In this document: one piece after another, positions 12,241 to 34,380 of the stretch
Layout of the letters: every line of letters begins with the position of its first letter
Position numbering within the stretch: the first letter of the stretch is position 1
Assembly: GCA_036490175.1 (NCBI GenBank)
Contig: DASXEJ010000022.1
Coordinates: 1 to 34,380 of the forward strand
DNA from: Pirellulales bacterium
GTDB taxonomy: Bacteria > Planctomycetota > Planctomycetia > Pirellulales > JACPPG01
Direction of reading: 5' to 3'
DNA: 34,380 nt
Notes under the pieces: generated by a model
Told to the model about the DNA's origin: nothing
What the model saw: only the letters and a program-made list of their open reading frames with translations
Database searches by the model: none
Made by a program: the position numbers and the translations under genes

Positions 12241-12290
12241 GAGGTCGACAAAAGGACGGGGATAACCGCGAAAAGATGCACTGGGGTCGC

Positions 12291-12319
12291 ATCCTAACAC
12301 AAGTGAAAAGTTCGGGCAA
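12291..12319 (-). promoter_or_regulatory. Candidate sigma-70-type promoter of the Hsp70-like gene
   Basis: Read on the minus strand: TTGCCC, 17 bases, TAGGAT. Both boxes match four of six consensus bases at ideal spacing. The predicted start gives a leader of about 45 bases before the ATG at 12240. It is the only such pair noticed in this gap. Confidence 0.4.
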
Positions 12320-12430: not shown

Positions 12431-13093
12431 TCAGCAGCCAGGGGCGTCGATATGCTTGAGCCGTCCCTGTTCTATCACGGCGATCCGATCGGCCATGCGC
12501 CGCGCTTCGGAGGGCGAGTGTGTCACATAGATGGTGGTCACCGACCTATTGCGCACTATGCCCTCCAGCAATTCGACGAGTTCATTGCGCAGGTCCTCAT
12601 CGACATGCGCCAGTGGCTCGTCGAACAGCAGTACGTTCGGATCAATGACCAAGGCTCGCGCGATGGCCAGGCGCTGCGCCTCGCCGCCACTTAGCTCGCC
12701 GGGCGGGCGGTCCCAGGCACGGCGGGGCAGCTTCATTTCATCGAGCGAGAGCTCCGCCCGCGTGCGACGTTCGCTCCGCCCCAAGTGGTGCAGCACGGCC
12801 TCGATATGCTGTCGTGCGGATAGATGCGGCCATAACGACAGGTTTTGGAAAACCATGCCGATCTTCGGCACTCGCGCGGCGCCGGAATCGTCGGCTGCGA
12901 ATGCAACCGACCCTGCCGTGGGATCATCCAGACCTGCGATGATTCGCAGCAATGTGGACTTGCCAGCCCCCGACTTGCCTAGCAGGCCAAGAGAAGTCCC
13001 AGTCTCGATGGTCAAATCAATATGATCGAGCGCAACGTGATCACCGTATCGTTTCACGACGCCGCGACAGTGAATCGTTACACTTGCGGTCAT
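12431..13093 (-). CDS. ABC transporter ATP-binding protein, ferric/polyamine importer type, short form
   Basis: The 220-residue ATPase has all core motifs: Walker A GKSGAGKST (39-47), Q-loop Gln83, signature LSGGE (134-138), Walker B LLFDEP (155-160), D-loop LAHVDE and H-loop His192. It would power the fused permease just upstream. FbpC/PotA-type subunits usually have about 330-360 residues with a C-terminal TOBE domain for dimer contact and regulation; here the protein stops right after the ATPase core (IDAPGC). The start at 13093 (MTASVTIHCRGVVKRYG) is chosen by domain alignment; the open frame extends 105 codons further into the permease gene and is not credible there. It is the last gene of the cluster, 41 bases after the permease stop. 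Confidence 0.88.
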   Translation of the reverse strand: MTASVTIHCRGVVKRYGDHVALDHIDLTIETGTSLGLLGKSGAGKSTLLRIIAGLDDPTAGSVAFAADDSGAARVPKIGMVFQNLSLWPHLSARQHIEAVLHHLGRSERRTRAELSLDEMKLPRRAWDRPPGELSGGEAQRLAIARALVIDPNVLLFDEPLAHVDEDLRNELVELLEGIVRNRSVTTIYVTHSPSEARRMADRIAVIEQGRLKHIDAPGC

Positions 13094-13134
13094 GGCGATG
13101 TAGATCGTATGTGACAACCGCGCACGACGAGGCG

Positions 13135-14733
13135 CTACAGTGGTTCGAGGCGGCGGTTGGTGAGTAAAAAGTAGATGAATGCCGGAACGACGGCTAGTAC
13201 TAGCTGTAAAAGCGCCAGACTCGCAGTGACGTAGGGAGGACCGAAGTGCAAAAAGGTGAGCAAGCGCAACGCAAGCGTGCCAGAGCCGGGGGCACAAAGC
13301 AGCTGGCTTATCTCGACATCTGCCATGGAAAGCGCTGATGCTATAACAGCGGCTGCGGCAAGATGGGGCGCCATCAACGGTCCGACAATCCAGCGTGTCT
13401 GCTGCCAACGATTCATGCCGGACAACTGTGCGGCCTCACGCCAATTCGGAGACATGCGTGCGTAGCCGTTGGCGACAATGTGCGCCCCGAAGGGCAAGGC
13501 ATGGTACGCCAGGGCCAAGACGAGCAAAATTCCGCTGTCCCCTAGCCAAGCGGCATCGACCCAATCCTGATAATGGAAGAACCGGGCATAGGCGAGTCCA
13601 ATCACGAGCGCCGGAAACGCCGCCGGCGCCATCGTCAATAGTGTGAGGGGCAGAAATCTCGGACGTGCGTAATACGCACCACATGTCAGCCCAAGCCCGC
13701 ATGCTGCCAAAGTTGCTGCGACCGCCAGGCACAAGGTATTGAAGGTCTCGGGAAGCGCTTCCTGCACGGCGGCGACGAATCGCGAAAACGAACTGCACTC
13801 ATACACCAGCGCACCGATCGGCAACAGAATTGCCAAGGAAGAATAGATCAGCAGGAACCCGCCAAAAACCCAGGTGAGTGGACGTGGGGCGCGAGCCAAG
13901 CTGGTGCGAGCTACATGTCCGTCGACATATCTTCGTCGTCGCTCCTGGATGACAAAGGCCGTTGTCGCGGCCAAGGCAATCGAAACCAGTGGGGCCGCGG
14001 CGCGCGCCGCTCCGGCCTGATCCAAATAGTTCGACATCCGCAAATAAACATATGTGGGATACAACCGGCACTGCAGCACATTGGGCACCGCAAAATTGCC
14101 GATAGCCAACGCGAACGTCAACAAAGCCGCGGCAATTATTTCCGGGGCTAGCGATCTCAACATCCAAGTGATTCGCGCTGGCGCGCTAAAATACAACCGC
14201 GCAGCATCGAAGCCGGCATGGCCCAAGCGCGCCATGCCGCGCCCGATCAGAACCATCGCCAAGGGAGTATAAATCTGAGAGAGGACGATCGTGGTGCCGA
14301 TGTAATGACCGCCATCTATAGCGCCAGGCACGCTTCGCCAGCTGGAGCCAAGGCAACGATCGACGATGCCACCGGGACCATAACAATACATTCCGCACAG
14401 GGCCCAGACGGTGGCCGGAGCAACAAAGGGAATTAGCCACAGCGCCGCCAGTATTTGCCGACCGGGTAGCCGCGTTAGAACGACAAACGCCGCCAACAAA
14501 GTACCCTGTGCCAGTGAGAGTAGAGTCGCACAGACTGCCACCGCCACGCTTGCCGACAAGGCCGCGCCGTTGATAATCGCCGGCTCGCCGGCTTGCCACA
14601 ACGCGGGTCGTCGATCCAACAACAACAGCCACACGGCAGGAAAGCTCAACGCGACAACTGCCGCTATCGATAACCATGGCCAGTGCGACTCGCGGCCTCG
14701 GCGAGATGCGCCTGGGGCGGATCGGCCAATCAT
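13135..14733 (-). CDS. ABC transporter permease, two fused halves (FbpB/ThiP type)
   Basis: The 532-residue membrane protein has about twelve hydrophobic helices arranged as two similar halves, each with a binding-protein-dependent transport loop. In the second half GANGYARMSPNWREAAQLSG resembles the EAA motif that docks on the ATPase. This one-chain, two-domain layout is typical of class-I importers for ferric iron, thiamine and some sulfate-like ions. The ATG at 14733 overlaps the stop of the solute-binding protein gene as ATGA, with a GGAG about 12 bases upstream; this start is preferred to an ATG eight codons earlier. It forms the channel for the neighbouring lipoprotein and ATPase. The substrate is not fixed by the permease sequence. 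Confidence 0.85.
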   Translation of the reverse strand: MIGRSAPGASRRGRESHWPWLSIAAVVALSFPAVWLLLLDRRPALWQAGEPAIINGAALSASVAVAVCATLLSLAQGTLLAAFVVLTRLPGRQILAALWLIPFVAPATVWALCGMYCYGPGGIVDRCLGSSWRSVPGAIDGGHYIGTTIVLSQIYTPLAMVLIGRGMARLGHAGFDAARLYFSAPARITWMLRSLAPEIIAAALLTFALAIGNFAVPNVLQCRLYPTYVYLRMSNYLDQAGAARAAAPLVSIALAATTAFVIQERRRRYVDGHVARTSLARAPRPLTWVFGGFLLIYSSLAILLPIGALVYECSSFSRFVAAVQEALPETFNTLCLAVAATLAACGLGLTCGAYYARPRFLPLTLLTMAPAAFPALVIGLAYARFFHYQDWVDAAWLGDSGILLVLALAYHALPFGAHIVANGYARMSPNWREAAQLSGMNRWQQTRWIVGPLMAPHLAAAAVIASALSMADVEISQLLCAPGSGTLALRLLTFLHFGPPYVTASLALLQLVLAVVPAFIYFLLTNRRLEPL

Positions 14734-15758
14734 CGGTGGAAATGCTCCAGAGTCCACCGGCTGCTCTCTTCCAGCTTGTCGAGCAGCTGCTGGTCGCTTA
14801 TATCAAACCAGCGCGGAGTGGACTCGCCTTCTTGCCCTGCACCGATCGTGCCACCTCGAATGGCCATATACCCGCTCGCCTGACCACAGAGCATCGACTC
14901 TACGTCGGCGGAAACGAGATAATCCACAAGAGCGCGTGCCGTCGCGGGATGAGGCGCCTGTTCGATCAGGCACACGGTACACGGGCACAAAAACGTTCCG
15001 ATCGTATCCTGATCAGGAAGGATCATCTCGACCGGCTCATTGGCTGCTTGCCCTTCACGCACGTCGTCTGTATCCGTCAGCCCAATGAGAACACCGCCGG
15101 ACGATTCATCATGCCTGGCCACCAGGTTTTTCACCATGGCGTTGCCATCGACAATTTGCACGTCATTGGCGAGCAACTCTCCGAGAAACTGCTGCGCGCG
15201 GTTGCTGCCAATGGTGGCAAACAAGGCCGCAATGTGGGCCTTGGTCGTGCCGAATTGCGGATTGGCGATGGCGACTTTTCCGCGCCATTTAGGGTCGGCC
15301 AACTCAAAGATGCTGCGCGGAACTTCGGCAGGAGCGAGATGTTTCGAATTGTAAACGATCACACGAGCCCGCGTCGCGACAGGGGTCCACAGGCCAGACT
15401 CCGGCTTGCCGTGGGTGGGTATGTCCTGTGCGGCGGGAGATTCATACGCGGCGAGCACTCCGGCTTGTGCCAAAAGGCAGGTCTGAGCCAGTTCGTTATT
15501 CCAAAATACGTCGCAGCGAGGATGGTCGGCCTCGGTTAGTAGCCGCGCCACCAGGCCAGTGGTCTTGGCCGCTTCGGCATCGTACACCGCGCGCACTTTT
15601 ATTCCGCTGCTATTCTGAAACCGGTTGAGAATTGTCTCCGCGCGGCTGCGATCTATGGCAACGTACACGACCACTTCGTTGGTGTTACGTGTACAGCCAA
15701 AGACTATCGGCGCCATCGCGACTAACCCCATCGTCAACACCGCGCCGCGCCTGTTCAT
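14730..15758 (-). CDS. Solute-binding lipoprotein, family 1, FbpA-like
   Basis: The 342-residue protein has a signal ending PIVFGC, with Cys22 the likely lipidated residue. The mature part follows the family-1 binding fold: VVVYVAIDRSRAETILNRF at the start, WKGK-like PKWRGKVAIANPQFG in the middle, PHPATARALVDYLVS near the end. Overall it aligns in pattern with iron(III)-binding FbpA proteins. The paired tyrosines (YY) that bind iron in classic FbpA are not seen; at the corresponding place the sequence reads IGLTDTDDVREG, an acidic loop shared by a subgroup. Iron, another metal or an oxyanion are all possible ligands. ATGA overlaps on both sides couple its translation to the cytochrome gene before it and the permease after it. 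Confidence 0.82.
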   Translation of the reverse strand: MNRRGAVLTMGLVAMAPIVFGCTRNTNEVVVYVAIDRSRAETILNRFQNSSGIKVRAVYDAEAAKTTGLVARLLTEADHPRCDVFWNNELAQTCLLAQAGVLAAYESPAAQDIPTHGKPESGLWTPVATRARVIVYNSKHLAPAEVPRSIFELADPKWRGKVAIANPQFGTTKAHIAALFATIGSNRAQQFLGELLANDVQIVDGNAMVKNLVARHDESSGGVLIGLTDTDDVREGQAANEPVEMILPDQDTIGTFLCPCTVCLIEQAPHPATARALVDYLVSADVESMLCGQASGYMAIRGGTIGAGQEGESTPRWFDISDQQLLDKLEESSRWTLEHFHR

Positions 15759-16738
15759 TTCTCATTTAACTCCACTACCGCGCGCGATACTAATAAGGAC
15801 TCGGCGTCAGTATACCAGGGGTAGAGTTTATACAGCAGCGATACATCGGCGAGCACTGCATCCTTGACGACGGGGAATCGGACCTCGACGGTCTGGCCGG
15901 CGCGAATCTTGTCCGCGCTGGCTTCCCCGCGGAAGGGCGTTACGCCTTTGATCGTGTCTTGTTGCGAAAGCACGATCTCGCCATCGGCGGCGCGTTCGAT
16001 AATTTGCACGATCAACATGCGATGATGTCGTTCGCCTGGAAAGTTATGGCCTGTGGTTTCGTTGGCAAGGCGCACCACAACCTGCTCGGAATCCCGCGCG
16101 GCTTCCATGCGAACGCCACTGCGGACGGTGGCGTCGTCGTGCCCACCCAGGAATGCATGGCTGCGCCCCTTCCCGGTGCCCGCGAGCATCGGCATGTGGC
16201 ACGTCTGGCACTCCTGCCGTTTGGACGCGAAGGAACTTGCCGACCAATCTTTTTGAGATGCTACGTGGCAGACTCCACAAGATGCACTCGACATGAACAA
16301 GGGAGACTCGGTGGGGCGGCAGGGAGCATTTGCGATCGTGCGACGCGCGGCGACCCCGCCATCGGGCAACTGATGGCACGTTAAGCAATTTACGCCCGAC
16401 TCGACATCGGCAACCCGCAGGACCGGCTCCGCGTCAGGCGATGCCAGCGTCGGCTCGGCGGCATGGCATGATTGGCACTTCCGGTCAAAGCCAAAGGTGC
16501 CGAATGATGCCTGTACCGTCGCGTCGCGCCATGCGCGGGCGTGCATCGACGCCTCCCACTCGCGCCAGGCGTCTTGATGACATTGCTGACAGGAGGTGTG
16601 GTCGAGTTTTGCGCCGTCGCCGGCAGGTATGCTCGTGCGACGCGAATTAATCCCCGTGACAACAAACAATGCGGCTATGAGCAATCCGAAGACTGCGGCC
16701 ACGAATATGCGGACCGTGCGCGCCACTTGAGCTTTCAT
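15755..16738 (-). CDS. Membrane-anchored five-haem cytochrome c
   Basis: The 327-residue protein has an N-terminal hydrophobic anchor (about 10-29) and five CxxCH haem sites at 50-54, 88-92, 118-122, 154-158 and 177-181. Extra His residues (HARAW, SHAFLGGH, TGHNFPGERHH) can serve as distal ligands. A beta-sandwich-like C-terminal part (about 205-327) contains the GHNFPGE motif seen in many multihaem cytochromes of the c554/perf-type group. It should sit on the outer face of the cytoplasmic membrane and pass electrons. Its stop codon overlaps the start of the solute-binding lipoprotein (ATGA), so synthesis is coupled to the ABC importer. A role in metal reduction linked to uptake is suggested by this context only. 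Confidence 0.88.
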   Translation of the reverse strand: MKAQVARTVRIFVAAVFGLLIAALFVVTGINSRRTSIPAGDGAKLDHTSCQQCHQDAWREWEASMHARAWRDATVQASFGTFGFDRKCQSCHAAEPTLASPDAEPVLRVADVESGVNCLTCHQLPDGGVAARRTIANAPCRPTESPLFMSSASCGVCHVASQKDWSASSFASKRQECQTCHMPMLAGTGKGRSHAFLGGHDDATVRSGVRMEAARDSEQVVVRLANETTGHNFPGERHHRMLIVQIIERAADGEIVLSQQDTIKGVTPFRGEASADKIRAGQTVEVRFPVVKDAVLADVSLLYKLYPWYTDAESLLVSRAVVELNEK

Positions 16739-16784
16739 CGGAAAAGTGGCCGTCGTCCTTGTTCACTGCGAATGATCATTGGCG

Positions 16785-18788
16785 TCATTGTTCCGATTCG
16801 GACTCGGCGGGTGCGGCTGTTCCGGACGGCGGCACGGTCGCGTCGCCGTCCTGTGCGTCGGGACTTTGAATCTGCTGCAACTGCTTTGACAATTCGCCCA
16901 ATTGCTCGATGCTGCGGCTGATCTTTTCCAACTCGGCGCGATCTTCGGGCTGCTCTGAATCCTCCAACTGCGACGCGATGGAAACCAATTCCTCGATCTT
17001 GGCGCTATTCGTAAGAATGAACTTCTGCGCCGTGAGGTAGTCATTCACTTTGATCAACGCCTCGATCGCGGCTTTCGCCTGAGGCAGGACATCCTCCACG
17101 CGACTTATATCTTCGTCGACCCACACCTCGTAAACGAACTTGCGCGCCTTTTGTTGCTCGGGCGACTTGATCTTCCATGCCTCTTTCAGCCGCTCTACGC
17201 GTTGCAGGACTTTGGGTTGGTCCGGCAATTCCTGGAGAGATTGTTCGTAATTGGTGATCGCCTCGTCGAAGTCGCCCGATTGCTCTTTCGCTTTGCCGAT
17301 GTCAACCGCCACCTTCGCGCGAGCGCGCTGATCGTTGACCTTGATGACTTCGCTCAGGCTGCTTTTCATGGCCTCAACCGTGCGCAGGTCGTTTTCGATC
17401 TGGTCGAGGGAAGCGCTGATTCCGGCGAATCGTTTGGCAACGTCGATTTTCAGGCTTTCTGCCTCTTTGCGCAGCCGTAAGGTGAGAAGCTGCGCGGGCG
17501 AGGCCAATTGATGCAAATCGTCGGCCAATTGTTCTGCACGCTTAAGGGCCTCTTCGTAACGTTTGTCCTGCTTGAGTGCGTTGATTTCGTCGACACCGAG
17601 GGTGTGAAAACTGCGCAGAAAGAACAGGTCTCGGATCAAAGAATGTATGCGTCGTTCGAACTCAGCCTTCATGCCGGCCGCGCGGTCGCGGGGAATCCGC
17701 ACCGTCGCCTCGATGGACTCCGACGTGATCACCAGCGGCAAAAGGAACTCGTCGCTATGTCCCTGCGTGATTTTGATAAACGCCAGCCGATTTAGGGGCT
17801 TTTTGGAGACCACGTAACCATTGCGATCAGGCGCCCCTAGGAGATCGGCATCCGTGATCTCGGAGAAGCCGCGATCATTGGCATACACGATGCAGTTCGA
17901 TAACGGATCACGGGTCCGTTCATCTTGAATTCGCAAGGTAAAGTCCCCTCGCACCGGCGAGATTTTAATCGCCTCGAAGCGCACGACGCGGGATCCTGTT
18001 TGCCAGGGGTTCTTCAGATTGGTATGAGCGTGGTACTCAATACCATTTTTTCCTTGATCAACTACCACCACGGTATTGGGGATCTCGCTATGAACAAGCG
18101 AGCCGTCGGGGCGTTTCTCTACCCTGACTACTTGCATAACGCACGGCAGCTGCAGAACTTGATCCAGTTCGTTTTGCCACTTGCTGCCTTGGAATTTCAA
18201 CTCCACCCGTCCCTCGTGGAAAAGTACCGTCGCCACAGGGCTGAACCCCTGGCAAATGGCCAGACAAGCGTCCTTGCCGACCAGTTGCCGATCGGAGATC
18301 GACGTGCTACGCACCGGTCCCAGTTGCTGCGTGCGCCCATCCCAGCGACGGAAGCGGATCTGGTATCCCGCCGTGGCGCGCTGGAAATCGAGGATCAAAA
18401 CCTGCGGTTGCACGTGGTTTTCGATCAATGTCACCGATACCAGGTTCTCTAAATCTTCGTCGCCAAGCTGGGCGCGCACGGCTGCCAGGCCGACGTCGTT
18501 ATCGTCTTTGCGTTCGGCATCCCCCGCGGCCTGTCCGTTTAAAGCGTCGTAGAGCTCGACTTCCACATTGACTAATGGACCGAAATAGCTGGTCAAGTGG
18601 TCCGAAATCTGGCGACGAATCCGATCGATAAAAAATCGTGAGAAGAGCGGTGTCTTGCTAAATCGCAAAACGACAACCAATCGGTAGGGCTCGCCGGCGT
18701 CTAACGACAGCAACTGATCGTCGGCTCGCGCGGAGCACGCGATCGCAAGAATAGCCAGGAGAATAAATAGTACGCGCAACGTACGCAC
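16785..18788 (-). CDS. Secreted protein with C-terminal coiled coil and TPR-like repeats
   Basis: The 667-residue protein has a signal peptide (MRTLRVLFILLAILAIACSA, cleavage near ARA-DD). Residues about 25-390 form a mixed, mostly beta region with no family I recognise (VVVLRFSKTPLFSRFFIDRI near its start). From about 395 on it is helical, with coiled coil and at least one TPR-like unit (AKEQSGDFDEAITNYEQSL, about 520-540), ending in an acidic, Ser/Pro-rich tail. The GTG start at 18788 lies three bases after the stop of the family-5 binding protein, with GAGG about nine bases upstream, so the two are probably translated together. A scaffold or partner protein of that binding protein is likely; the exact role is unknown. 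Confidence 0.75.
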   Translation of the reverse strand: MRTLRVLFILLAILAIACSARADDQLLSLDAGEPYRLVVVLRFSKTPLFSRFFIDRIRRQISDHLTSYFGPLVNVEVELYDALNGQAAGDAERKDDNDVGLAAVRAQLGDEDLENLVSVTLIENHVQPQVLILDFQRATAGYQIRFRRWDGRTQQLGPVRSTSISDRQLVGKDACLAICQGFSPVATVLFHEGRVELKFQGSKWQNELDQVLQLPCVMQVVRVEKRPDGSLVHSEIPNTVVVVDQGKNGIEYHAHTNLKNPWQTGSRVVRFEAIKISPVRGDFTLRIQDERTRDPLSNCIVYANDRGFSEITDADLLGAPDRNGYVVSKKPLNRLAFIKITQGHSDEFLLPLVITSESIEATVRIPRDRAAGMKAEFERRIHSLIRDLFFLRSFHTLGVDEINALKQDKRYEEALKRAEQLADDLHQLASPAQLLTLRLRKEAESLKIDVAKRFAGISASLDQIENDLRTVEAMKSSLSEVIKVNDQRARAKVAVDIGKAKEQSGDFDEAITNYEQSLQELPDQPKVLQRVERLKEAWKIKSPEQQKARKFVYEVWVDEDISRVEDVLPQAKAAIEALIKVNDYLTAQKFILTNSAKIEELVSIASQLEDSEQPEDRAELEKISRSIEQLGELSKQLQQIQSPDAQDGDATVPPSGTAAPAESESEQ

Positions 18789-18791
18789 CGA

Positions 18792-21464: not shown

Positions 21465-21492
21465 ATTTGCTCGCTCGGTAGCGTTCTGGCCG

Positions 21493-22722: not shown

Positions 22723-22732
22723 CGTGCAATGC

Positions 22733-24064: not shown

Positions 24065-24076
24065 ACCAAACGCCGC

Positions 24077-25351
24077 TTAATAGGGGAACTTCGCCACACG
24101 CGCAGTCGGTGTCTCGTGCAATACGATGGGTGTTTTGACCGCGGATTTTCCAACGGGGCGCATGTCGCACCGATAAGTGACCGGCTGCTGCCCAATGGCA
24201 ACGACACGCAACAAGAGGCCGCCCTCGATTGGGTATTGCTCCCATTGCGCGGCATCCAATGGGGGCAAATCAAGGGTCGTCTGTTCTCGCTTCCAGGGTG
24301 CAATCTGCCACCAGTCCTGATGGTCGTCTTTGTCAGGTGCGAGTTGGCCTTCAATCGTGACGGATGATGCCGCACCGGGGCTGGCCACACGCTGCGCATT
24401 GCACCAGAGCGAATTGGCGTCGGCCGGATCGGCGGTGAAGGTAAATCGGCATTTCAAGTCTGCGGTCATGGCTTGACGCAGCTTTTTCCGGTCGGCTGGC
24501 GATAACGCCTCCGCGGCAACCTTTCCGCCACGATGGTTCTGCGCCTTGCCACCCATGGCGAAAAACACCGCGTTAAAACGAGGCGCCAATCGTTGGCGCG
24601 CATTTGCACCTTCGGTCTGTAATGCGAGTCCGCAGCGGTGCAGCTGTTCGTCGTACAACTCGTCCGCACAGAGCTCGCAGTACAGATTGCAAGCGTCGCG
24701 ACCGCGCGCCGCTAGTAGAAAGTCCCTCTCGTCGCGCGAGAACCACTTCGAGTGCTTGTCGATAGCCGGCCGCATCTGATCGAGCACGGGCTGAGGGGCA
24801 TTTTCCATCGCCCACTGGAGTGCAAAGTCACGAAATAGCTCGTCGTCGCCGCCCGTTGGCAAGGTCTCAACACGCGCAGCGAGATAATCTTTGACGGCTT
24901 GTTTAGGTTTATTGCGTGCTTCTTTGAGGCCCCGTTCGATGCCGTCCGCCAGCAAATTGCTGATATTGCTTCGGACGCGGGCCGCCACATCCTGGGAGCT
25001 AACGATTTCGAACGGACAGATAAGTTCGCCGTCCGAGTCTGTCGACCCGTCCGGCTTTGTTAGTTCGATGCTGTTACGACTCAGCAGTTCTATTTCCAGA
25101 TCGCCAAAGGCGGGCTTCACGACCTCCAATTTGACTCGCCCGACGATCATTTCTTGAACGCCGAGTTCCAGTGTCATCTTGTCCTTATCGAAGACGATGC
25201 GGCGATCGCGAGTATTTTCTAGTAGATTTACGTGCAGGGTGTCCTTATGGACTTTCGCACTTGCCCCGGACTGCGCTCTTCCCATCGCCGAACACGCCAG
25301 CACCACGCCGAGAGTGCCGCAGGCAATGATTGTGAAGCTGCGGCTTGTCAT
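24077..25351 (-). CDS. Secreted protein of unknown function
   Basis: The 424-residue protein has a signal peptide (MTSRSFTIIACGTLGVVLAC, then SAMGRAQS); cleavage after GRA is likely and a lipoprotein cut before the Cys cannot be excluded. No family is recognised. A mostly beta N-part (about 35-110) precedes a helical middle with a tight cysteine cluster (ACNLYCELCADE and a further HRC, about residues 218-240) and a beta-rich C-part. The ATG at 25351 has GGAG ten bases upstream and follows the kinase stop by four bases; an ATG at 25369 would overlap the kinase gene by 14 bases without such a site. As part of the operon it is probably an envelope component. Confidence 0.7.
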   Translation of the reverse strand: MTSRSFTIIACGTLGVVLACSAMGRAQSGASAKVHKDTLHVNLLENTRDRRIVFDKDKMTLELGVQEMIVGRVKLEVVKPAFGDLEIELLSRNSIELTKPDGSTDSDGELICPFEIVSSQDVAARVRSNISNLLADGIERGLKEARNKPKQAVKDYLAARVETLPTGGDDELFRDFALQWAMENAPQPVLDQMRPAIDKHSKWFSRDERDFLLAARGRDACNLYCELCADELYDEQLHRCGLALQTEGANARQRLAPRFNAVFFAMGGKAQNHRGGKVAAEALSPADRKKLRQAMTADLKCRFTFTADPADANSLWCNAQRVASPGAASSVTIEGQLAPDKDDHQDWWQIAPWKREQTTLDLPPLDAAQWEQYPIEGGLLLRVVAIGQQPVTYRCDMRPVGKSAVKTPIVLHETPTARVAKFPY

Positions 25352-25355
25352 AGTG

Positions 25356-28300
25356 CTAGTTCTCCGCATGCTTGGGCTTTGCCTGGGATGTCAGAACCAG
25401 CAATGTCCCGTCGTCCAAGGGAACTAGGAACTGGTCATGACCAAGGGGAACGGCGGCGGTGGCAGGACCGGCAGCGACCGGTAACTCACGGTTCCGATGC
25501 GTATGACCATCGTCCCAATTGAGAATTGTGAGCTGTCCTGCCTCATCAATTACCACCAGGCCCTCGTCGCTGGCAACAGGTTGGCCGCAAATTCGACCAG
25601 GCGTGGGCTCGGAGACCCAACGCAACTCTTTGGACGGAATGTCGATGCTGGCGACTTTGCGCGATTCCAATACCACGAGCGCGGACTGGCCATGGACGAA
25701 AGGGGACATGGTCGCGCGGCCAGGCAGAGCCACTTTCCAATGCTCCGGGGCAGCGTCGTTCCAATGGACGCCGTGCAACGTTCGGTCCCGGTCGGCGACC
25801 AACATATTGCTTGCGGACCAATCCGGCGGTAAGAATCCAGCTTTCGTCAACTTGATCGCGTTGCCAACTTCAAGGAAGCGCCACAGCCCCGCGTCACCAC
25901 GCTGCAGCGCCAAGCGACGCACGGTGCCATGATCCGAGAGAATGAACAAAGACTGGTTGCCGTCAGACATCAAGACCGGCCGCTCGCCGATCAAGCCATC
26001 TGCCGATCTCCAGCGATAGGTGGGCAACTGTGCGGGGGGCGCCTGGGGATTCAATTCGCACAATTGAATGTTGCCGTCGTCGCAAGGAACGGCGAGACGT
26101 TCCCCCATCAGGCACGGCTGGCCGGAAATCGAAGCCGGCAACGGCACGATGTTCCAAGCTGATTGTTGCCTTTTCGGGTCGAGCACCTGGGCGACGTCGA
26201 AAATCGCCAGCCGGCGGCCATTGTCGATCACGGCGACTACATGCGACGGGCTGGCTGCCGGGCCTAACAGGTAGAATTGCGACGCAATCATGCCGGCCGT
26301 GGAAAAGCCCTTCACAGCCGGTTGAAAGGGTGGGGCGACGTGATCAGCAGGGACCACGCCCTGAGGGATCTTCATACGCCAAATCTGGCCGCCGTGGTCG
26401 ACCAGCAACACGTGGCCGTCGTGTACCAAGGGGTTACTCCACAGACTGTGTCCCAAGGCGCAGCTCCACAGCGTCTTGCCCCCTTCGGCCTCGACTGCGG
26501 ATAGTGTGTAACCGCGCCCATCCGGTGACATGAGTGTGAGATAAAGAGTCTTGCCGTCGCTGGACGTCTGAGACTCTTGTACAGGAATCCCCTCGATGCT
26601 CGTTGAGTCTCCGGTCTTGGGCCACACCGTGGTGATGCGCTGACTGGGAACGTCGAGCAGTCGTTTTTGCAACTTGCCGCCCGTTACGACCCACAGCAAC
26701 TGTTCCTGCGAATTCACGGCTAAAGATCGCGCCGGATCGTCGTCCACTTTTACCGCGTCAGGATCGTCGATCATCCGATACAGGGCCTCCTCTTCGCTGG
26801 CGTCGATATTCAAATTGACGCCGTAGGCGCCGACGACACCCCGGTCCGTGACAAATGTCACGCGATCCGGCGCGACGAGCGGCGGGAGCCATGTCCAGCC
26901 CTCTAATGCCTCTTCCTTGAGAGGAGCATCGTGCGGCGAGCGAAAACCTCCCTCGTGAACACGAAAGACTCGCAACAAGGTGTTATCAAACCCTGCCGCC
27001 TGATTGAGGATCAAATACGGTCCGGCCAGGATCGGCTCGGACCGTAAGGATCCGCCAGGATGATTGGTAAAGAGAACCGATCGACAGGCCGGTCGCGACG
27101 GATCGTCCAGCACCTTGGGGTCGATGGCAAACAGCCGCTTGTTCTCTGCCGGAAAGTACACCAACCGCGTCAAAGGATCGTACTTTCCGCCGGACGCCAA
27201 CGGTTTGTTCACCCGAATGGTCCCCAGACGCTTTCCCAGCACCAGTTCCAACACATGGATCTCGCCGGTCGCCGTCGGCAGCAAGCCGCAGGTACGCGTG
27301 ACCGTGTCACCATCGGCAGCAAGGGTCGGTACGATCGTTGGCGCGGTAAAGACCGCGCCGTCGAGTTTGTAACTCCAGCGTACTCGTCCCGTGCGTTCTT
27401 CAAGCGCGAGCAATCGCCCCTCGCCGGGAGAGGCCGTTAGTAACAATGGAGGACTCGTTGGTGTTTCGGAAATGCGGACCGGTAAACCGTCGCAGTCGAT
27501 TCCCAATCGGCGTGCCCAGAGAAATGTTCCGCGCTCGTCAAAAGCGTACAGCACGCCTCTGGCCAGCGCCAGCACGACGGCAGAGGCGCGCATCTGCTTG
27601 TCTTGGGCAAGCGATTGCTTGTTAAGCAGCCACAACGTGGCTGAGGGTTCGCGCCCCTGCGCCGTCGTGGGCGGATCCTGGGATTCTATCGGTGATTGCG
27701 CCGCGACCTCGTAGGTGACCTGCTGAACCTCGAATTGTTCGGCTTGCCGTAACGCTTCTTCCAACTCCTTGGCCTTACCGAGTTGCGGATATTCCTTCCG
27801 CAGCGCGTCGTAACGCGCATAGGCTTTGTCCGGATCGACCGTGGCATCGCTCTCGCGCAGCTTTTTCAAGTCGCCCAGCACCAGATCACGCGCACGCTCA
27901 CGACGGACTTCCGCATCAGCGTCTTTCAAAGACTCGTCGAGCTTTTGAATCCTATCTTTGACCCAGTCATCCTTCATGGAGTTGGCGACTGTGGAAAATA
28001 GTTCGAAGGCCGTCTTCGCCTGTTCAATTTTCGCGGGATTGCGTTCGCGGGTGGCTTCCTCGAGGAAGCGTCTGACGGGACGTTCCGTCAGGTCATACAA
28101 GTAATTTGCGTACAACGCGTACACTTCTTCGTCACGGTATTTTTTATAGATGCCATTCATACGATCGAGCAAGGCTTGCGCCGGATCGGTGGTCGCCGCG
28201 ATCTGCGCGTCGCAAAGCTCGACAAAGAATGGCACGTATTCATTCTTGGGAAACGCCGGATAGTCCTGTGCCAGCTTTGCGAAGTTGGCTGACGCCAGTT

Positions 28301-29840
28301 CCCAATGGCTGAGCCCGAATTCGTCCGCGACAATGCGATCCCAGACTTCCTCCGGGGGCGGATAAATCCGCCGGTAGGCCATCCGTCCCATCACGCCGAA
28401 TACGCCGAGTAAAACAACGCCTGCCACCAAGGCGATGCGCCAGGGGAATGCGCTAGGTTGATAATAAGTGTCTTCCGGCGGACTCGTATCGAATGGGTCA
28501 TCATCGGCGACCGCATCAACGACATCTGGCCGATCCTGACCGGGAGGGAGCGCACGCTCGAAATCCCCCTCGTCGGATGATGTCGCGGCGGGACCGCCGT
28601 GCGCCACGGTCTCGGCATGCCCTTGAACGTGATGCAATGTATTGTCGTGCGCAGGGCCAGCGGCGACGACATCTGCGTTTCCGCTGGTCCATTCCATCCG
28701 ATCAAAATCGTCATCTTCATCGTCGACAGCCATTGCCTCGACGAATTGCGGCCCAACGGTTTGGGGAGTCTGCTGACCCGACACGATCAAATTCGGCTCG
28801 ACTTTGAATGGATCGCAGCGCGCGTTACGACAGGGCAGCACCATACCTAGCGAACTGCGGTCGACGTGGTAGAGTTCGCCACAGCTTGGGCAGCGGACGT
28901 CGAAAGAGGACGCAACGCCGGCAGTGGGGGTCGGCGTGTGCGAGCCGTTCGCGAGCAACACGGCCACGTCCTGGCAGATTTCCAAGGGATCAGGACGCTT
29001 AGACGGTTGCACGGCCATCATTCGCTGCACGAGGCGGTCGAATGCCTCTGGTATATCGCTGCGCGTTTGGCAGATCGATGGCCTGGGGGCGGTGGCATGA
29101 CGCTGGTGCAGCCCGGCCAGATCCAGATCAAGAAAGGGCTGTCGGGCAGTGAGGCAATAGAAAATGGTACAGCCGAGGGCGTACACGTCCGCCGCGATCG
29201 TGGCGCTATGGGGGTCAACGAACTGCTCAGGCGCCATGTAAGCCGGCGTTCCGAGCGTCACGCCGGAGCGGGTCGTATCGAAGCTTCCTTGATCAAAGTC
29301 GGAAATCAATCCCAGGCCGTAGTCGACGATCTTCGCCTGATCGTCATCAGCGATCAGGATATTGCTGGGCTTGATATCTCGATTAACGACGCGTGACTGG
29401 GCAGCAACTTCCAGTCCTGCAGCCAGACCGGTTAGATACCGGGCGACACGCGCGAGTGGGAGTGGCTGCTCCGATTGGATCAGCTCGTCCAGCCGCTTTC
29501 CGTGCACAAATTCCATGACGAGAAATAGCCGGCCCGCCTCCTGGCCGTGTTCGAAGGCATGCACGATGTTGGCATGCTTGAGACGTATGGACGCCTCTAT
29601 CTCGCGCCGGAATCGTCGGCTGGCTTCCGGTTCGTTGGAACGCGGAAACTTAATCGCCACACGGCAGTTGTCGCGCGAGGTATCGCGCGCCTCATAGACT
29701 TCCCCCATCTCTCCGGAGGAAATCCGTTGTAAACCAGCATAACGGCCCACAAACCGGTCACGGCAGTTCGGACATTCCCAGGGAATTGTCCGACCATCGT
29801 CTGCCGAAAACTGAGTGTGACACGTGGGGCAATTTGGCAT
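25356..29840 (-). CDS. Membrane Ser/Thr protein kinase with zinc ribbons and PQQ-type propeller
   Basis: The 1494-residue protein begins with a zinc ribbon (CPTC, CPNC; 4-26). A PknB-type kinase domain covers about 34-295: ISSGEMGEVYEARD loop, Lys64 (VAIKF), NRD at 153-155, DYG at 173-175 and YMAPEQ. His of the HRD motif is Asn and Phe of DFG is Tyr, but Lys, both Asp and the catalytic-loop Asn are kept, so it may be active. A second Cys4-type ribbon lies near 313-345, a membrane helix near 463-485, a helical region to about 780, then a propeller to the end with PQQ-like blades (GVLYAFDERGTFLWARRLG, GRLLALEERTGRVRWSY). Kinase inside, propeller outside: a receptor-like layout. The ATG at 29840 is chosen by the ribbon; the open frame upstream overlaps the TonB-like gene. 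Confidence 0.88.
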   Translation of the reverse strand: MPNCPTCHTQFSADDGRTIPWECPNCRDRFVGRYAGLQRISSGEMGEVYEARDTSRDNCRVAIKFPRSNEPEASRRFRREIEASIRLKHANIVHAFEHGQEAGRLFLVMEFVHGKRLDELIQSEQPLPLARVARYLTGLAAGLEVAAQSRVVNRDIKPSNILIADDDQAKIVDYGLGLISDFDQGSFDTTRSGVTLGTPAYMAPEQFVDPHSATIAADVYALGCTIFYCLTARQPFLDLDLAGLHQRHATAPRPSICQTRSDIPEAFDRLVQRMMAVQPSKRPDPLEICQDVAVLLANGSHTPTPTAGVASSFDVRCPSCGELYHVDRSSLGMVLPCRNARCDPFKVEPNLIVSGQQTPQTVGPQFVEAMAVDDEDDDFDRMEWTSGNADVVAAGPAHDNTLHHVQGHAETVAHGGPAATSSDEGDFERALPPGQDRPDVVDAVADDDPFDTSPPEDTYYQPSAFPWRIALVAGVVLLGVFGVMGRMAYRRIYPPPEEVWDRIVADEFGLSHWELASANFAKLAQDYPAFPKNEYVPFFVELCDAQIAATTDPAQALLDRMNGIYKKYRDEEVYALYANYLYDLTERPVRRFLEEATRERNPAKIEQAKTAFELFSTVANSMKDDWVKDRIQKLDESLKDADAEVRRERARDLVLGDLKKLRESDATVDPDKAYARYDALRKEYPQLGKAKELEEALRQAEQFEVQQVTYEVAAQSPIESQDPPTTAQGREPSATLWLLNKQSLAQDKQMRASAVVLALARGVLYAFDERGTFLWARRLGIDCDGLPVRISETPTSPPLLLTASPGEGRLLALEERTGRVRWSYKLDGAVFTAPTIVPTLAADGDTVTRTCGLLPTATGEIHVLELVLGKRLGTIRVNKPLASGGKYDPLTRLVYFPAENKRLFAIDPKVLDDPSRPACRSVLFTNHPGGSLRSEPILAGPYLILNQAAGFDNTLLRVFRVHEGGFRSPHDAPLKEEALEGWTWLPPLVAPDRVTFVTDRGVVGAYGVNLNIDASEEEALYRMIDDPDAVKVDDDPARSLAVNSQEQLLWVVTGGKLQKRLLDVPSQRITTVWPKTGDSTSIEGIPVQESQTSSDGKTLYLTLMSPDGRGYTLSAVEAEGGKTLWSCALGHSLWSNPLVHDGHVLLVDHGGQIWRMKIPQGVVPADHVAPPFQPAVKGFSTAGMIASQFYLLGPAASPSHVVAVIDNGRRLAIFDVAQVLDPKRQQSAWNIVPLPASISGQPCLMGERLAVPCDDGNIQLCELNPQAPPAQLPTYRWRSADGLIGERPVLMSDGNQSLFILSDHGTVRRLALQRGDAGLWRFLEVGNAIKLTKAGFLPPDWSASNMLVADRDRTLHGVHWNDAAPEHWKVALPGRATMSPFVHGQSALVVLESRKVASIDIPSKELRWVSEPTPGRICGQPVASDEGLVVIDEAGQLTILNWDDGHTHRNRELPVAAGPATAAVPLGHDQFLVPLDDGTLLVLTSQAKPKHAEN

Positions 29841-29920
29841 GCTGGCTGCTGCAGGGACAACGTTTCCGGCCGGGTTGAATTGCTTAGATCGTGGAGCACC
29901 GAGGCCCACCGTGCACGTAC

Positions 29921-30976
29921 CTATCTTGGTTCTTGTGCAACGACCTGAACGTCGAAACCACCGCCGGTCCGGACCACCTCGAATTGCGTCGACTTGATAC
30001 GATCTTCCGATAGTCCGCGATAGGCAATCTCGAGCTTGGAGAGTCGGTCCTCGAGCCGCTGCGGCAAAAGCGTCATGAAGTAATCGCCCCGCGCTGACAT
30101 GTGCAAGTGCTCGGCGACGCGACGCGCTGAAGATGGATCTTGATCCATCCAAAACATCTGGTCGATCTCACCTTCTTTATGAATCGATTGACCAGGCGGT
30201 TCTTTGCTCAGATCGACATAAACGTAAGATCCACCATCGCCGGGAAAAACGATGGTGGCGCCCAATCCTTTGATCTGTGCCACGTAGTCTGCCGCGCTGC
30301 GCATGTTGAATCGGAGGATCCAGCGCGCTTGTCGTGCCGACCTTCCGCTCGCGGCGTCTCCTCCTCCGCCCCCTTGGCCCCCGCCGCCGGATCCATCTCC
30401 GCCTGTGCCGCCACCGGATCCGCCGCCGGCGCCGGCCCCGCCTCCTCCGCCCGACTTGTTTAAGTTTTGGGCCAGCCGTTTACGAATCGAATTGGCGGCG
30501 CTCTCGGCACGTTGCGCAACGTCGCCGGCCGAAACCGAAGTCTCACTGGGGCTGAAATCGGTATCCACGGGCGCGTCAGGTTGCACCTCCGTATCCAACT
30601 GGGCCGACGGCGTCGTTGGCAGCGGCATATCGCTCGACGTGGACGTCGATTGCTCGAGCGATTGTCCGGAATCACCCCCCGTTCCCGAGCCTGCTCCGGA
30701 CGGCAGGCCGTCCGCGCCGATGCCGGGCGCGGCGCCATCTCCGTCACCGTCGACAATGGCGATGGCGCCAATCGTCGGCGGGCGATGGTTGCGCTTGGCG
30801 AAGGCCGTCAACCCCAGGGCGAATAGCAACACGACAAATACGTGCAAGCTGATCGAGATCACGGTCGAGATCGGCAATTCGAAGCGGGGGGAGTACCGCC
30901 ACCAGAATCGCTGCCAGCTTGTCGTGGGACGCCGCGGAGCTTTTGCGGCTTTTTTAGGATTGGGCGCGGTAGCCAT
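29921..30976 (-). CDS. TonB-like membrane protein with Gly-rich linker
   Basis: The 351-residue protein has a basic cytoplasmic start, one membrane helix (about 36-58, ISTVISISLHVFVVLLFALG) with a His inside it as in TonB (SxxxH pattern, here S41...H45), a Ser/Pro/Asp-rich stretch and a run of almost pure Gly (about 175-210). A folded C-terminal domain (about 215-345) ends it. The order matches TonB/TolA: anchor, extended spacer, periplasmic domain. The C-domain does not show the usual TonB YP motif, and Gly replaces the Pro-Lys spacer. It starts 13 bases after ExbD-2; AGGGG of the ribosome binding site overlaps the ExbD-2 stop. It probably transmits ExbB/ExbD motor force to outer partners. 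Confidence 0.72.
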   Translation of the reverse strand: MATAPNPKKAAKAPRRPTTSWQRFWWRYSPRFELPISTVISISLHVFVVLLFALGLTAFAKRNHRPPTIGAIAIVDGDGDGAAPGIGADGLPSGAGSGTGGDSGQSLEQSTSTSSDMPLPTTPSAQLDTEVQPDAPVDTDFSPSETSVSAGDVAQRAESAANSIRKRLAQNLNKSGGGGGAGAGGGSGGGTGGDGSGGGGQGGGGGDAASGRSARQARWILRFNMRSAADYVAQIKGLGATIVFPGDGGSYVYVDLSKEPPGQSIHKEGEIDQMFWMDQDPSSARRVAEHLHMSARGDYFMTLLPQRLEDRLSKLEIAYRGLSEDRIKSTQFEVVRTGGGFDVQVVAQEPR

Positions 30977-30989
30977 GGCGATTTAACCC

Positions 30990-31604
30990 CTAGCCCTTTT
31001 TCATCAGGAAGTGGACCTGGTCGATGCCGGCGCCGCCGGCGGCGTCGATGACCTTGATGACCGTTCCGTATTCCACGCCGTCGGCGTCGAGAATCAACTC
31101 CTTGCGGTTTTGGCTCGACTGACTTGTCAGATTCTTTTCTAGTTCCGCTTCGGGTACTTCGGTCTCACCGACCCAAAACCGGGGTTGCCGTTGCTCCTGG
31201 CGCGCTCTGACTCGGATCATGAAGTTGTCGACGTCTTCGCTGCGCACCGTTCTCACGCCCGAATCGTCGGTGGTTTTCGTTTGTGGCATCTGTAAAACTT
31301 TTTCCAGCACCTGATAGCCCGTCGTCAGGATGAAGAAGATCAACAGCACCAGCGTCACATCGATCAAGGCGTTCATGTCGACGCCGCCATCGTCCTCTTC
31401 CCTGGCAACGGGCTCGGGCTCTAGCTCAGCAGCGATTTCGGCGAATTGTGGATGCTCTTCAATAACTTGCCATGCGGTATCGCGCGGTCCGCGCACCTCG
31501 TCGGTTGTGTCGAAGTCTCCATCGCGCAGGGCCTCGACAATGCGGGCCACGGACAAGCCGGCGACCTCTTTCGGCGATCCGCGATGACGTAGCGTCCAAC
31601 TCAT
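30990..31604 (-). CDS. exbD: ExbD/TolR-family protein 2 with N-terminal GYF2-like domain
   Basis: The 204-residue protein has an extra cytoplasmic domain at 1-58 (WTLRHRGSPKEVAGLSVARI, then DGDFDTTDEVRGP, AWQVIEEHPQF), of the GYF_2 kind. An acidic linker leads to the single helix NALIDVTLVLLIFFILTTG (78-96), with Asp82 the proton-path residue conserved in ExbD/TolR. The periplasmic part ends with a beta-alpha unit (ELILDADGVEYGTVIKVIDA) normal for ExbD. With ExbB it forms a proton-driven motor. Ordinary ExbD has about 140 residues. The start has AAGGA nine bases upstream and lies five bases after ExbD-1. Confidence 0.88.
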   Translation of the reverse strand: MSWTLRHRGSPKEVAGLSVARIVEALRDGDFDTTDEVRGPRDTAWQVIEEHPQFAEIAAELEPEPVAREEDDGGVDMNALIDVTLVLLIFFILTTGYQVLEKVLQMPQTKTTDDSGVRTVRSEDVDNFMIRVRARQEQRQPRFWVGETEVPEAELEKNLTSQSSQNRKELILDADGVEYGTVIKVIDAAGGAGIDQVHFLMKKG

Positions 31605-31609
31605 GCCAG

Positions 31610-32296
31610 CTATTCCTTCCCCTGGTGATCGCTCACCCCGGCTTCGATTCGATCGAATCCCTTGCTAGTCAGTCCTGCTAGAAGTGCTTGTATCGTTTCA
31701 TAGGGAACTTGGGCCTGCGCCCTGATGATCGTTGTCTCGACGCTTCCCTTGGGATGTTTCTCGGCGGTGTGATTGAGGAAATCCGCCAATTCGGCGCTGG
31801 CAAATTTGCGCTCGTCCCCGCCATCGAGAAAGAACTGCGGCTGCGAGGCCTCGAATGCGACGTTGATGTTCAGCGGCTCGCGCTCGGCGATGACGCGGGC
31901 GTTGGTCGCGGGAGGGGTCTCGACCGGCGAGGCGGTGATCATTTCGGCCGCCGTCAACATAAAAAACACGAGCAGCACCAAACTGATATCGATCAGCGGA
32001 ATCATGTCTGGGTCTTCTTCCTCCTCCGCATGACTGGAAGAGCCGAACCCTAGATCAACGGCCTCGTATGCCTCGGCTTCGTCGTCCGCGCTGACCGCGG
32101 CCGCGTGCGGCAAATAGGTGGCGAACTCGGGTACGTCCTGGATCACGCGCCAGTCCGTTTCGCCCGCGGCGCGGACGCAATCGTTCGCCGAAATGCGTCC
32201 TTGCTGGATCCAATCTGTCAATTTGTTGAAGTCAACGAGCGGAGAGACGACGTCTCGTTCGACGAGTCGCACTTGGAATTGCTTCGCTTGGGTCAC
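31610..32296 (-). CDS. exbD: ExbD/TolR-family protein 1 with N-terminal GYF2-like domain
   Basis: The 228-residue protein carries at 7-62 the same kind of extra domain as its neighbour (FQVRLVERDVVSPLVDFNKL, then WIQQGRISANDCVRAAG, DWRVIQDVPEF). An acidic spacer leads to MIPLIDISLVLLVFFMLTA (98-116) with the motor Asp103. The C-part is ExbD-like (ETTIIRAQAQVPYETIQALL). The GTG at 32296 is chosen as start: GGAG lies nine bases before it, it is 14 bases after the ExbB stop, and the domain starts there. The open frame runs 206 codons further up, but that stretch is ExbB read out of frame. Two different ExbD proteins next to one ExbB suggest a mixed motor. Confidence 0.88.
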   Translation of the reverse strand: MTQAKQFQVRLVERDVVSPLVDFNKLTDWIQQGRISANDCVRAAGETDWRVIQDVPEFATYLPHAAAVSADDEAEAYEAVDLGFGSSSHAEEEEDPDMIPLIDISLVLLVFFMLTAAEMITASPVETPPATNARVIAEREPLNINVAFEASQPQFFLDGGDERKFASAELADFLNHTAEKHPKGSVETTIIRAQAQVPYETIQALLAGLTSKGFDRIEAGVSDHQGKE

Positions 32297-32310
32297 GACC
32301 GCGGTCTCCG

Positions 32311-33003
32311 TTATTGTTTGTGAGCGACCGCGGCACTGGGATTGGGAGCCGTAGCTTTCGTAGCGGGCTTGGTACGCACATACTCTTGGACGAGCGCTAG
32401 CAATTTCTGGGCATTGCTCTTCATTTGGATTTCGACTTTGTGCACGTTGGCTTTGAAGAGCACGTGCGCGAAGACTAGCGGAATCGCGGTGACCAGACCG
32501 AGGGCCGTGGCGAAGAGGGCCAAGCCGATCTCGGTGCTTGCTTGTGCCGAGCCGCCGGCCTTGCCGGATTTGGCAGCTTCGCCCAATACTTGGAAGGTGC
32601 CGATCATGCTCACCACGGTGCCGAGCAGACCAACCATCGTGGCAATTTTGGCAATGGCCATAATGGAAGGGAGCAGGTAATTCAGATCCGGCACGAATTC
32701 CAGCTCGATCGCGCTGGCCATCGATCGCCGCATCGCCGCCGTACCCTGCGGAAAGGCGTGCAGCCCTCGCGCCAGCAGCCGCGGGATCATTCCCTTTTCG
32801 CGCTGACACAAAGTCAAAGCACCAGCAGGGCCATTTTGCGACAACTCTTGCTGCAAGCTTCCCAGGAATCGATCCATGTCCGTGCGGGCGTTGAAATTCA
32901 GCATCAGCCGCCAAGCGACCAGCGCTGCCGCGGCCAAGGACATGGCGAACATCACTATGGCGAACGCCATGTGGTTCGTGACAAACGTTGTAAAGGCTTC
33001 CAT
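32311..33003 (-). CDS. exbB: ExbB/TolQ/MotA-family proton channel protein
   Basis: The 230-residue protein has three membrane helices (about 12-33, 108-138 and 158-183). The conserved signature appears in the second and third: MVGLLGTVVSMIGTFQVL and TEIGLALFATALGLVTAIPLVF. The loop between helices one and two (about 34-107) is cytoplasmic. ExbB pentamers surround an ExbD pair and use the proton gradient to move a TonB/TolA-like partner. The two ExbD genes follow directly and the TonB-like gene comes next, so the full motor is encoded together. Length and layout are normal for the family. Confidence 0.92.
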   Translation of the reverse strand: MEAFTTFVTNHMAFAIVMFAMSLAAAALVAWRLMLNFNARTDMDRFLGSLQQELSQNGPAGALTLCQREKGMIPRLLARGLHAFPQGTAAMRRSMASAIELEFVPDLNYLLPSIMAIAKIATMVGLLGTVVSMIGTFQVLGEAAKSGKAGGSAQASTEIGLALFATALGLVTAIPLVFAHVLFKANVHKVEIQMKSNAQKLLALVQEYVRTKPATKATAPNPSAAVAHKQ

Positions 33004-33039
33004 GGGTGTGGACTGTCTCCCGGCAGGCTGGAACGGAAA

Positions 33040-34380
33040 CTATTTAGCGTCGCCCTGTGCGGATCGCCATTTACGCCATTGCTTGATCTGCCCTGCTGTT
33101 TCTAATGGTGACTGGCCTTCGCGCGGTCCGAATTTTTGACCTGTCAGTTCACGGAGCATCGCGGCAACTTGCGGCCATTGATCGCGCGGTATGCGCTTTA
33201 ACTGCTCGGCCTCGGGTATCGCATCCAGGACCAGCTTGGCGGCTTCAGGATCCTTGAGCTCGCGCAGCATCTTGATGGATGCCAGCCTGTCGCCTGGTGA
33301 AGAGTCTTTGGCGGCCAGCGTATCGATGGCGGTGTCGCGAAGCTGCACGCGCTCTTTGGCACTGACCCGTTCCAGGCGTGGTGACAATTGTTGCCAGATC
33401 AGCTTGCTCAACTCCGCGTCCGCGGCCGAAAGCCAGGCCACGCAATCTGCGGGTGACGCAGCGGCGATGGCTGTTTTGACGCGATCGCGAATGTTGGTTG
33501 ATACCGCTGGCTTTGCGCCTTGCGCCAATTGCCACACATCCATCAGGTGCTCGCGGGCATCCTTGGCCGTGAGTTTGTGGTCTCCGATCTCTTCGACAAG
33601 AAGTGCCTTGCGGTCTTCGTCTGCCACCGACATCATTCCCAGCAGTTCGCCGACGGGCTTATTGGCCCAATCCTTCTTGAGTATCTGGCCTTCTCGGGCC
33701 ACTTTGGCCTGGCGGTTCTTAACGGTATTGTTGAGCAGCGTCTTGAGTTTCGGATCGTCGGTCGCGTCGGCGGCTTTCTCAAGCACATCTCGACTGCATT
33801 TCTTTAGCACAAGCTCTCTGGCATTGTGGGCAAATTCCGTGACGGTTCCATCTACCTTGCGTCCCGAGGTTGCCAAGAGCAACGTGCTGATATCTTGCGG
33901 ATCGACGTCGCCTGATTCGAGCGCCTGCTGCAAAAGGTCCAAAAGATCCTTTGCGGCCTCACGATGCAGCGGCAACTGGTCATTACCCGGCACTTTGCCA
34001 TTCATCAATAGGGAACTAATGGAGGAGATCACCGCCTTATTCCCTTGTCCGCCCAGATGCGACACAAGCTTTTTTGCCATCTTCCGGTATTCGGGGATCT
34101 TCTCCAGCGGGAAGGTGGGGAATTCGGCGGGGTTGATATTGCGATTATCGAGATAGGCCAGGGCCGACAGACAATCTTTTGCGATCAATGTGCGGGATTG
34201 GATTTCGCCCTCAGTCAGACGCGCCTCGATCTTTCCCCCGCGCGCCGCTCCGCCTTTGGGCTTGGCGGCATCCTCAGCGCGCTTCTTCTTGAGCTGTTCG
34301 GGCGTGACGGCGCGCAACTCGCTGCGTTCCAAACTGGCAACCGCTTGAGGGACCTGACGCTTAATCTCGTTCAAGTAGTC
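33040..34380 (-). CDS. Helical-repeat protein of unknown function (5' end outside window)
   Basis: At least 446 codons are visible; the frame is open to the right edge, so the N-terminus lies beyond it. A TTG at 34374 is not a convincing start. The visible part begins with a basic coiled segment (LKKKRAEDAAKPKGGAARGG) and continues as Ala/Leu/Lys/Glu-rich helices in pairs, like an alpha-solenoid (HEAT-type) protein; clear repeats could not be fixed by eye. It ends WRKWRSAQGDAK. Planctomycete genes for secreted HEAT-like proteins often look like this. It stands directly before exbB with a 36-base gap and probably belongs to the same transcript. No enzymatic motif was seen. Confidence 0.7.
   Translation of the reverse strand, partial: DYLNEIKRQVPQAVASLERSELRAVTPEQLKKKRAEDAAKPKGGAARGGKIEARLTEGEIQSRTLIAKDCLSALAYLDNRNINPAEFPTFPLEKIPEYRKMAKKLVSHLGGQGNKAVISSISSLLMNGKVPGNDQLPLHREAAKDLLDLLQQALESGDVDPQDISTLLLATSGRKVDGTVTEFAHNARELVLKKCSRDVLEKAADATDDPKLKTLLNNTVKNRQAKVAREGQILKKDWANKPVGELLGMMSVADEDRKALLVEEIGDHKLTAKDAREHLMDVWQLAQGAKPAVSTNIRDRVKTAIAAASPADCVAWLSAADAELSKLIWQQLSPRLERVSAKERVQLRDTAIDTLAAKDSSPGDRLASIKMLRELKDPEAAKLVLDAIPEAEQLKRIPRDQWPQVAAMLRELTGQKFGPREGQSPLETAGQIKQWRKWRSAQGDAK

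Follow-up and report, generated by a model that had tools for sequence, protein, structure and literature searches.

Do genes for an ExbB/ExbD motor, a receptor-like kinase, two binding proteins, a five-haem cytochrome and an ABC importer, which follow one another closely on one strand of a Pirellulales genome, encode a single envelope machine? An initial annotation had proposed one operon and one machine for this locus, which occupies positions 34380 down to 12431 of the minus strand of the window, by which we mean the whole 34,380-nt stretch analysed. The window is one entire contig (DASXEJ010000022.1) of the 7.6-Mb assembly GCA_036490175.1 (G000, 95.8% complete; other G numbers denote genomes, L numbers loci and C numbers contigs). 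We find a coherent envelope gene set that really consists of two modules, and we read it, at a probability of about one half, as a Ton/Tol-type trans-envelope system driven by the proton motive force and having periplasmic parts of its own.

Conservation of the core

Translation, Pfam and NCBIfam, by which the parts were assigned, confirmed the series of envelope genes and bore out every part first named (ExbB, two ExbDs, a TonB-like protein, a kinase with propeller, a TolB-like protein, TPR proteins, a family-5 solute-binding protein (SBP5), the cytochrome and the importer); a HEAT-like gene upstream and an Hsp70 gene downstream had been overlooked. The core consists of the HEAT-like and TonB-like proteins, ExbB, two ExbDs, the kinase with its PQQ propeller, a PPC-like protein, the TolB-like protein, TPR protein a (TPRa), SBP5 and TPR protein b (TPRb). 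As judged by gene order, it is more than a group of chance neighbours. A search of planctomycete genomes, which the initial annotation had suggested, revealed the ExbB-to-TPR core to be collinear in distant Pirellulales loci (G000, G078, G014, G032 and G377), with parts only in G184, L019 and G008. The order from the TonB-like gene to TPRb is kept on a single strand up to the contig limits in G078, G014, G032 and G377, with one rearrangement: the TonB-like gene lies ahead of ExbB in the relatives and after the second ExbD in the window. Across Pirellulales families the core proteins share 22–48% identity with their window counterparts, indicating that gene order has outlasted much sequence change. 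Given that the core stays collinear in distant genomes and moves as a unit, the genes can be regarded as a coherent envelope set.

The core is rare, being present in about 8 of the 396 genomes of the order Pirellulales; SBP5 orthologues occur in 7 of the 396 and in none of the four same-genus genomes. A single-sequence search for SBP5 in the named genomes gave nothing, and an alignment-based search gave five loci. Plasmids yielded no SBP5 match, and the SBP5 matches of a phylum-wide search in G421, G432, G466, G484 and G502 had no core neighbours and were not counted as the system. Reduced forms extend further: G762, from another order, carries HEAT, TonB-like, FHA-plus-propeller, SBP5 and TPRb genes, G524 and G439, from other classes, carry TolB-like/TPRa/SBP5 cassettes, and G460 keeps ExbB, ExbD, a propeller protein, the TolB-like protein and TPRa. 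No description of the cluster was found in the literature, in a search that reached few subscription journals.

Distances between the genes, measured from likely starts and excepting the surroundings of Hsp70, range from −28 to +80 nt, the largest being 80 nt ahead of the kinase ATG (29840), 46 nt ahead of the cytochrome and 41 nt ahead of the ATPase (ATG 13093). These gaps and overlaps had been taken as a sign of one transcript, and strong internal promoters as a sign against it; six promoter-like sites were observed in the series compared with 7.0 ± 2.7 expected by chance, so that one transcript is neither supported nor excluded. A scan for terminators was likewise uninformative. Because the window is an entire contig, the 5′ end of the cluster is out of view, cut inside the HEAT-like gene.

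The cytochrome-importer module and Hsp70

The block formed by the cytochrome and the FbpA/B/C-type importer is a separable second module associated with the core. It comprises a membrane-anchored five-haem cytochrome c (15755–16738, like all window features below on the minus strand unless stated otherwise), a binding lipoprotein of the FbpA/PhnS type (14730–15758; SBP_bac_6, E = 1e-19; lipobox VFGC), a fused FbpB-type ABC permease (13135–14757; BPD_transp_1) and an FbpC-type ATPase (12431–13093; ABC_tran, E = 5e-32). Five CXXCH motifs are present in all five cytochrome orthologues, and the same 5 of 97 relatives, without exception, carry the cytochrome and the fused permease. Within the order the cytochrome occurs in 6 of 396 genomes, five of which also bear the core (Fisher p = 4e-9, with no correction for phylogeny); the assembly of the remaining one, G073, is 65% complete. 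TPRb directly adjoins the cytochrome in four loci (G000, G078, L019 and G365, the last counted as core-bearing on the strength of a TPRb that stops immediately ahead of the cytochrome), whereas in G008 and G014 the module and the core are on different contigs. The cytochrome is absent from G032, G184 and G377, and FbpB is also absent from G032. According to the initial annotation, separate occurrence of the two parts in most relatives would have spoken against one system; they adjoin in only 4 of 9 core-bearing genomes, yet their strong co-occurrence favours a functional link over coincidence. Being separable yet associated, the modules make the "one operon" of the window a special case.

The importer proved to be of the expected type in its binding lipoprotein, fused permease and ATPase, but the tyrosine pair of ferric binders is missing from the FbpA-type protein (LTDTDD aligned with YHYYRF of ferric proteins). 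Its nearest NCBIfam models are 2-aminoethylphosphonate binders, below cut-off, and its nearest solved structures are ferric binders. With TDTDD in place of the tyrosine pair, iron as the ligand is not supported.

Of all parts, Hsp70 (10618–12300, likely ATG 12240; HSP70, E = 6e-104) tracks the core best. In a 14-genome test, a protein of this subfamily scored at least 505 bits in 7/7 core genomes and 0/5 controls, and all other Hsp70s, those of the five controls included, reached at most 354 bits, a split that marks the subfamily as belonging to the system. The gene directly follows FbpC in G000, G078, G008, G014 and L019 and precedes the TonB-like gene in G032. In G184 and G377 it is carried by short contigs separate from the core, and the incomplete G365 yielded no copy.

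Several minor features were seen at these loci. Some 1.5 kb beyond TPRb, G032 carries a diverged c554-type cytochrome; an in-frame TAA breaks the fused permease gene of G014 (L043, 5093–6652); and in L019 the FbpA and FbpB genes are separated by an oppositely oriented 546-aa open reading frame without a Pfam match (9206–10846, minus strand). What looked like a piece of FbpA beside Hsp70 in G184 was rejected, since by eye it lies inside an IspG-like reading frame.

Motor, transducer and periplasmic proteins

The first visible core gene encodes the HEAT-like protein (33040–34380, 5′ end cut by the contig end), whose orthologues lie upstream of the TonB-like/ExbB genes. A HEAT gene precedes the core in G078, G014 and G008; the HEAT_2 match is weak in the G078 copy and is also found in the gene at the same position in G762. 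The motor consists of a 230-aa ExbB/TolQ-type proton channel (32311–33003; PF01618, E = 2e-19; 38–40% identity to orthologues) and two ExbD/TolR-type proteins (31610–32296 and 30990–31604; PF02472, E = 1e-16 and 5e-16), the first with an N-terminal GYF_2-like segment just below cut-off. By alignment both ExbDs retain the channel aspartate, as PLID in protein 1 and LID in protein 2.

The TonB/TolA-like force transducer (29921–30976) has a transmembrane helix, a Gly-rich linker and a 130-residue C-terminal domain. An S-x3-H motif is found in its helix in 5/5 Pirellulales orthologues and in six of seven aligned rows, one more distant row being without it. The comparable pair in E. coli TonB is S16/H20. 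The S-x3-H motif fits the Ser/His (SHLS/His) signature through which TonB and TolA bind the motor according to PMC12204202. The C-terminal domain was modelled at a pLDDT of about 90; neither a TonB C-terminal domain nor a vWA fold is among its listed fold matches, and Pfam detected no TonB C-terminal domain in the protein. The label "TonB-like" can be justified for the membrane helix alone, no TonB match having been obtained for the C-terminal domain.

Next comes a protein with a Zn-ribbon-like start, a Ser/Thr kinase domain (Pkinase, E = 5e-41), a transmembrane helix and a periplasmic PQQ-type β-propeller (25356–29840; PQQ_2, E = 6e-22). The catalytic motifs VAIK, NRD and DYG are present in its translation. 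The kinase, rightly listed as a part in the window, is not obligatory to the system, since the domain is missing from G008 and replaced by FHA in G762. The secreted protein encoded at 24077–25369 has no Pfam match and has orthologues of 22–26% identity in the same position; a fold search gave no confident full-length match, and residues 334–405 of its model, a C-terminal β-sandwich, weakly match PPC/collagen-binding domains (Z about 6, rmsd 2.2–3.1, 64–69 residues aligned). The secreted TolB-like protein (22733–24064; PD40; 42–48% identity to orthologues) matches TIGR02800 TolB weakly, at 30 bits and in the propeller part only, and shows no Pfam match to TolB_N. TPRa (21493–22722; TPR families; 41–45% identity to orthologues) is also secreted.

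SBP5 (18792–21464; SBP_bac_5, E = 4e-38) carries an extra N-terminal region of about 350 aa and is closest to dipeptide-, haem- and nickel-binding proteins. It is an orphan in that no Opp-type permease stands beside it at the core loci read. TPRb (16785–18788), the last core gene, has a weak TPR match and orthologues in all core genomes. In planctomycete classes other than this one, the gene after an SBP5 relative encodes a small GTPase of the Arf/Gtr type that recalls MglA (GPGLSGKTTNLEIIH; L032, 7425–8081; L034, 16853–17527).

Comparison with known systems

Ton and Tol are the textbook routes for putting the energy of the inner membrane to work at the outer one. Like Tol-Pal (TolQ-TolR-TolA-TolB-Pal-CpoB), the cluster encodes a motor, a TolA-type helix, a TolB-like propeller and TPR proteins in a row; unlike it, the cluster has additional kinase/propeller, SBP5, HEAT, PPC-like and Hsp70 genes and is rare in the order rather than general. 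We did not file it as Tol-Pal because it contains no Pal. OmpA-domain genes are present in the window's genome, none of them beside an ExbB gene, so that no canonical tol-pal locus is seen in this incomplete assembly. With the Ton system the cluster shares ExbB, ExbD and a transducer with an S-x3-H helix and a flexible linker, but it has two different ExbDs and no receptor. No match to the TonB-receptor plug domain was found in G000, which makes a classical Ton role unlikely there; the other core genomes have 1–9 plug matches, the only one in G008 being below cut-off. For this host we did not file the cluster as a receptor-driven Ton system either.

In its TPR gene, one TolQ-like and two heterologous TolR-like proteins and single-helix transducer, the cluster also resembles the vWA force transducers of Planctomycetes-Verrucomicrobia-Chlamydiae (PVC) bacteria as presented in a passage of PMC12204202, but no vWA domain is recognised in its transducer, and that passage makes no mention of SBP5, kinase-propeller, TolB-like or Hsp70 neighbours. 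The importer is like FbpABC/PhnSTUV in its SBP_bac_6 lipoprotein, fused permease and ATPase; unlike these, it follows a five-haem cytochrome in all loci read and is followed by Hsp70 in five, and it lacks the tyrosine pair. SBP5 differs from Opp/Dpp importers in having no permease of that type alongside.

Interpretation

What is established is a set of genes in conserved order, the motifs of the motor and of the transducer helix, and the fact that a dedicated Hsp70 and a cytochrome-ABC module co-occur with these genes. In the Ton/Tol-type system that we favour, ExbB and the two ExbDs would drive the TonB-like protein, whose C-terminal domain, which gave no TonB match, would act on a periplasmic complex of the TolB-like propeller, the TPR proteins, the PQQ propeller of the kinase and the orphan SBP5. 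SBP5 would capture a ligand, the kinase (or FHA protein) would inform the cytoplasm of conditions in the periplasm, the cytochrome and importer might take up a redox-processed or associated solute, and Hsp70 could serve assembly or quality control. Because the system is rare and patchy, its purpose is likely solute capture or sensing and not housekeeping. Several points weigh against this reading. The transducer C-terminal domain gave no Foldseek match with E < 0.001, its fold being unrecognisable; 5 of 9 core genomes either lack the cytochrome/importer module or have it unlinked, and the Fisher test of its association ignores phylogeny; and G008 has a short form without the kinase domain, the PPC-like protein, the TolB-like protein, TPRa and the N-terminal region of SBP5, retaining the motor, propeller, SBP5 and TPRb.

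A divergent Tol-Pal-like system concerned with envelope integrity or with division, in which ExbB/D, the TonB-like, TolB-like and TPR proteins would stand for TolQ/R, TolA, TolB and CpoB, with SBP5 and the kinase added, would account for the parallel with tolQ-R-A-B-cpoB, the S-x3-H motif, the propeller similarity to TolB and the lack of plug-domain receptors in the window's genome. We nevertheless consider it unlikely, since no Pal/OmpA gene (PF00691) is among the window proteins (OmpA genes lie on contigs C332 and C149), the TolB N-terminal domain was not detected, and a system confined to about 2% of the order and missing from the same-genus genomes is unlike a housekeeping one. We give a similarly low chance to two independent systems, the core and a cytochrome-ABC importer-Hsp70 module, co-inherited through a shared host niche: the separate contigs in G008 and G014 and the cores without cytochrome or FbpB (G032) or without cytochrome (G184 and G377) are consistent with it, but the direct TPRb-cytochrome junction in four loci argues against it, as does Hsp70, which links both modules (beside the core in G032, behind FbpC in other genomes) and which no tested core genome lacks. 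Quite improbable is a surface machine for adhesion, gliding or secretion driven by the ExbB/ExbD motor. The motor with two ExbDs and TPR proteins resembles the motor loci of vWA transducers and gliding in the passage of PMC12204202, and SBP5 relatives in other classes adjoin small GTPases; no adhesin, outer-membrane barrel, recognised vWA domain or GTPase occurs in the Pirellulales loci, where an importer module co-occurs instead.

The favoured Ton/Tol-type system may tentatively be extended to an undescribed class of proton-driven envelope machine of Planctomycetota, in which a transducer with a new C-terminal domain would work an SBP5 fold, propellers and TPR proteins under kinase or FHA control, with its own Hsp70 and a cytochrome-linked importer. 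If true, such a conserved third arrangement would mean that proton motors drive other periplasmic machines too, here in a genome without a detectable TonB-receptor plug. The conserved block, its rarity and the co-occurring Hsp70, cytochrome and importer provide testable partners and candidate functions for proteins otherwise annotated singly as hypothetical, TPR, kinase or binding proteins.

Neighbouring genes and further motor loci

Tail to tail with Hsp70, the window encodes on the plus strand (7231–10026) a protein with a trypsin-like domain (PF13365) and a start, PPxxYDLLGL, that looks J-like by eye; Pfam gave no J-domain match in it. Proteins encoded ahead of HEAT in G078 and G008, and next to Hsp70 in G032, have similar starts. 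A gene upstream of HEAT in G073, J-like by its first residues, was rejected as a pyridine-nucleotide oxidoreductase by Pfam. A second TonB-like paralogue lies just upstream of the core in G032 (L009, 4419–5447). The window's genome contains further ExbB loci (L050, L051 and L052), in each of which one or two ExbD genes come next; two of the loci then encode a larger membrane or secreted protein as well.

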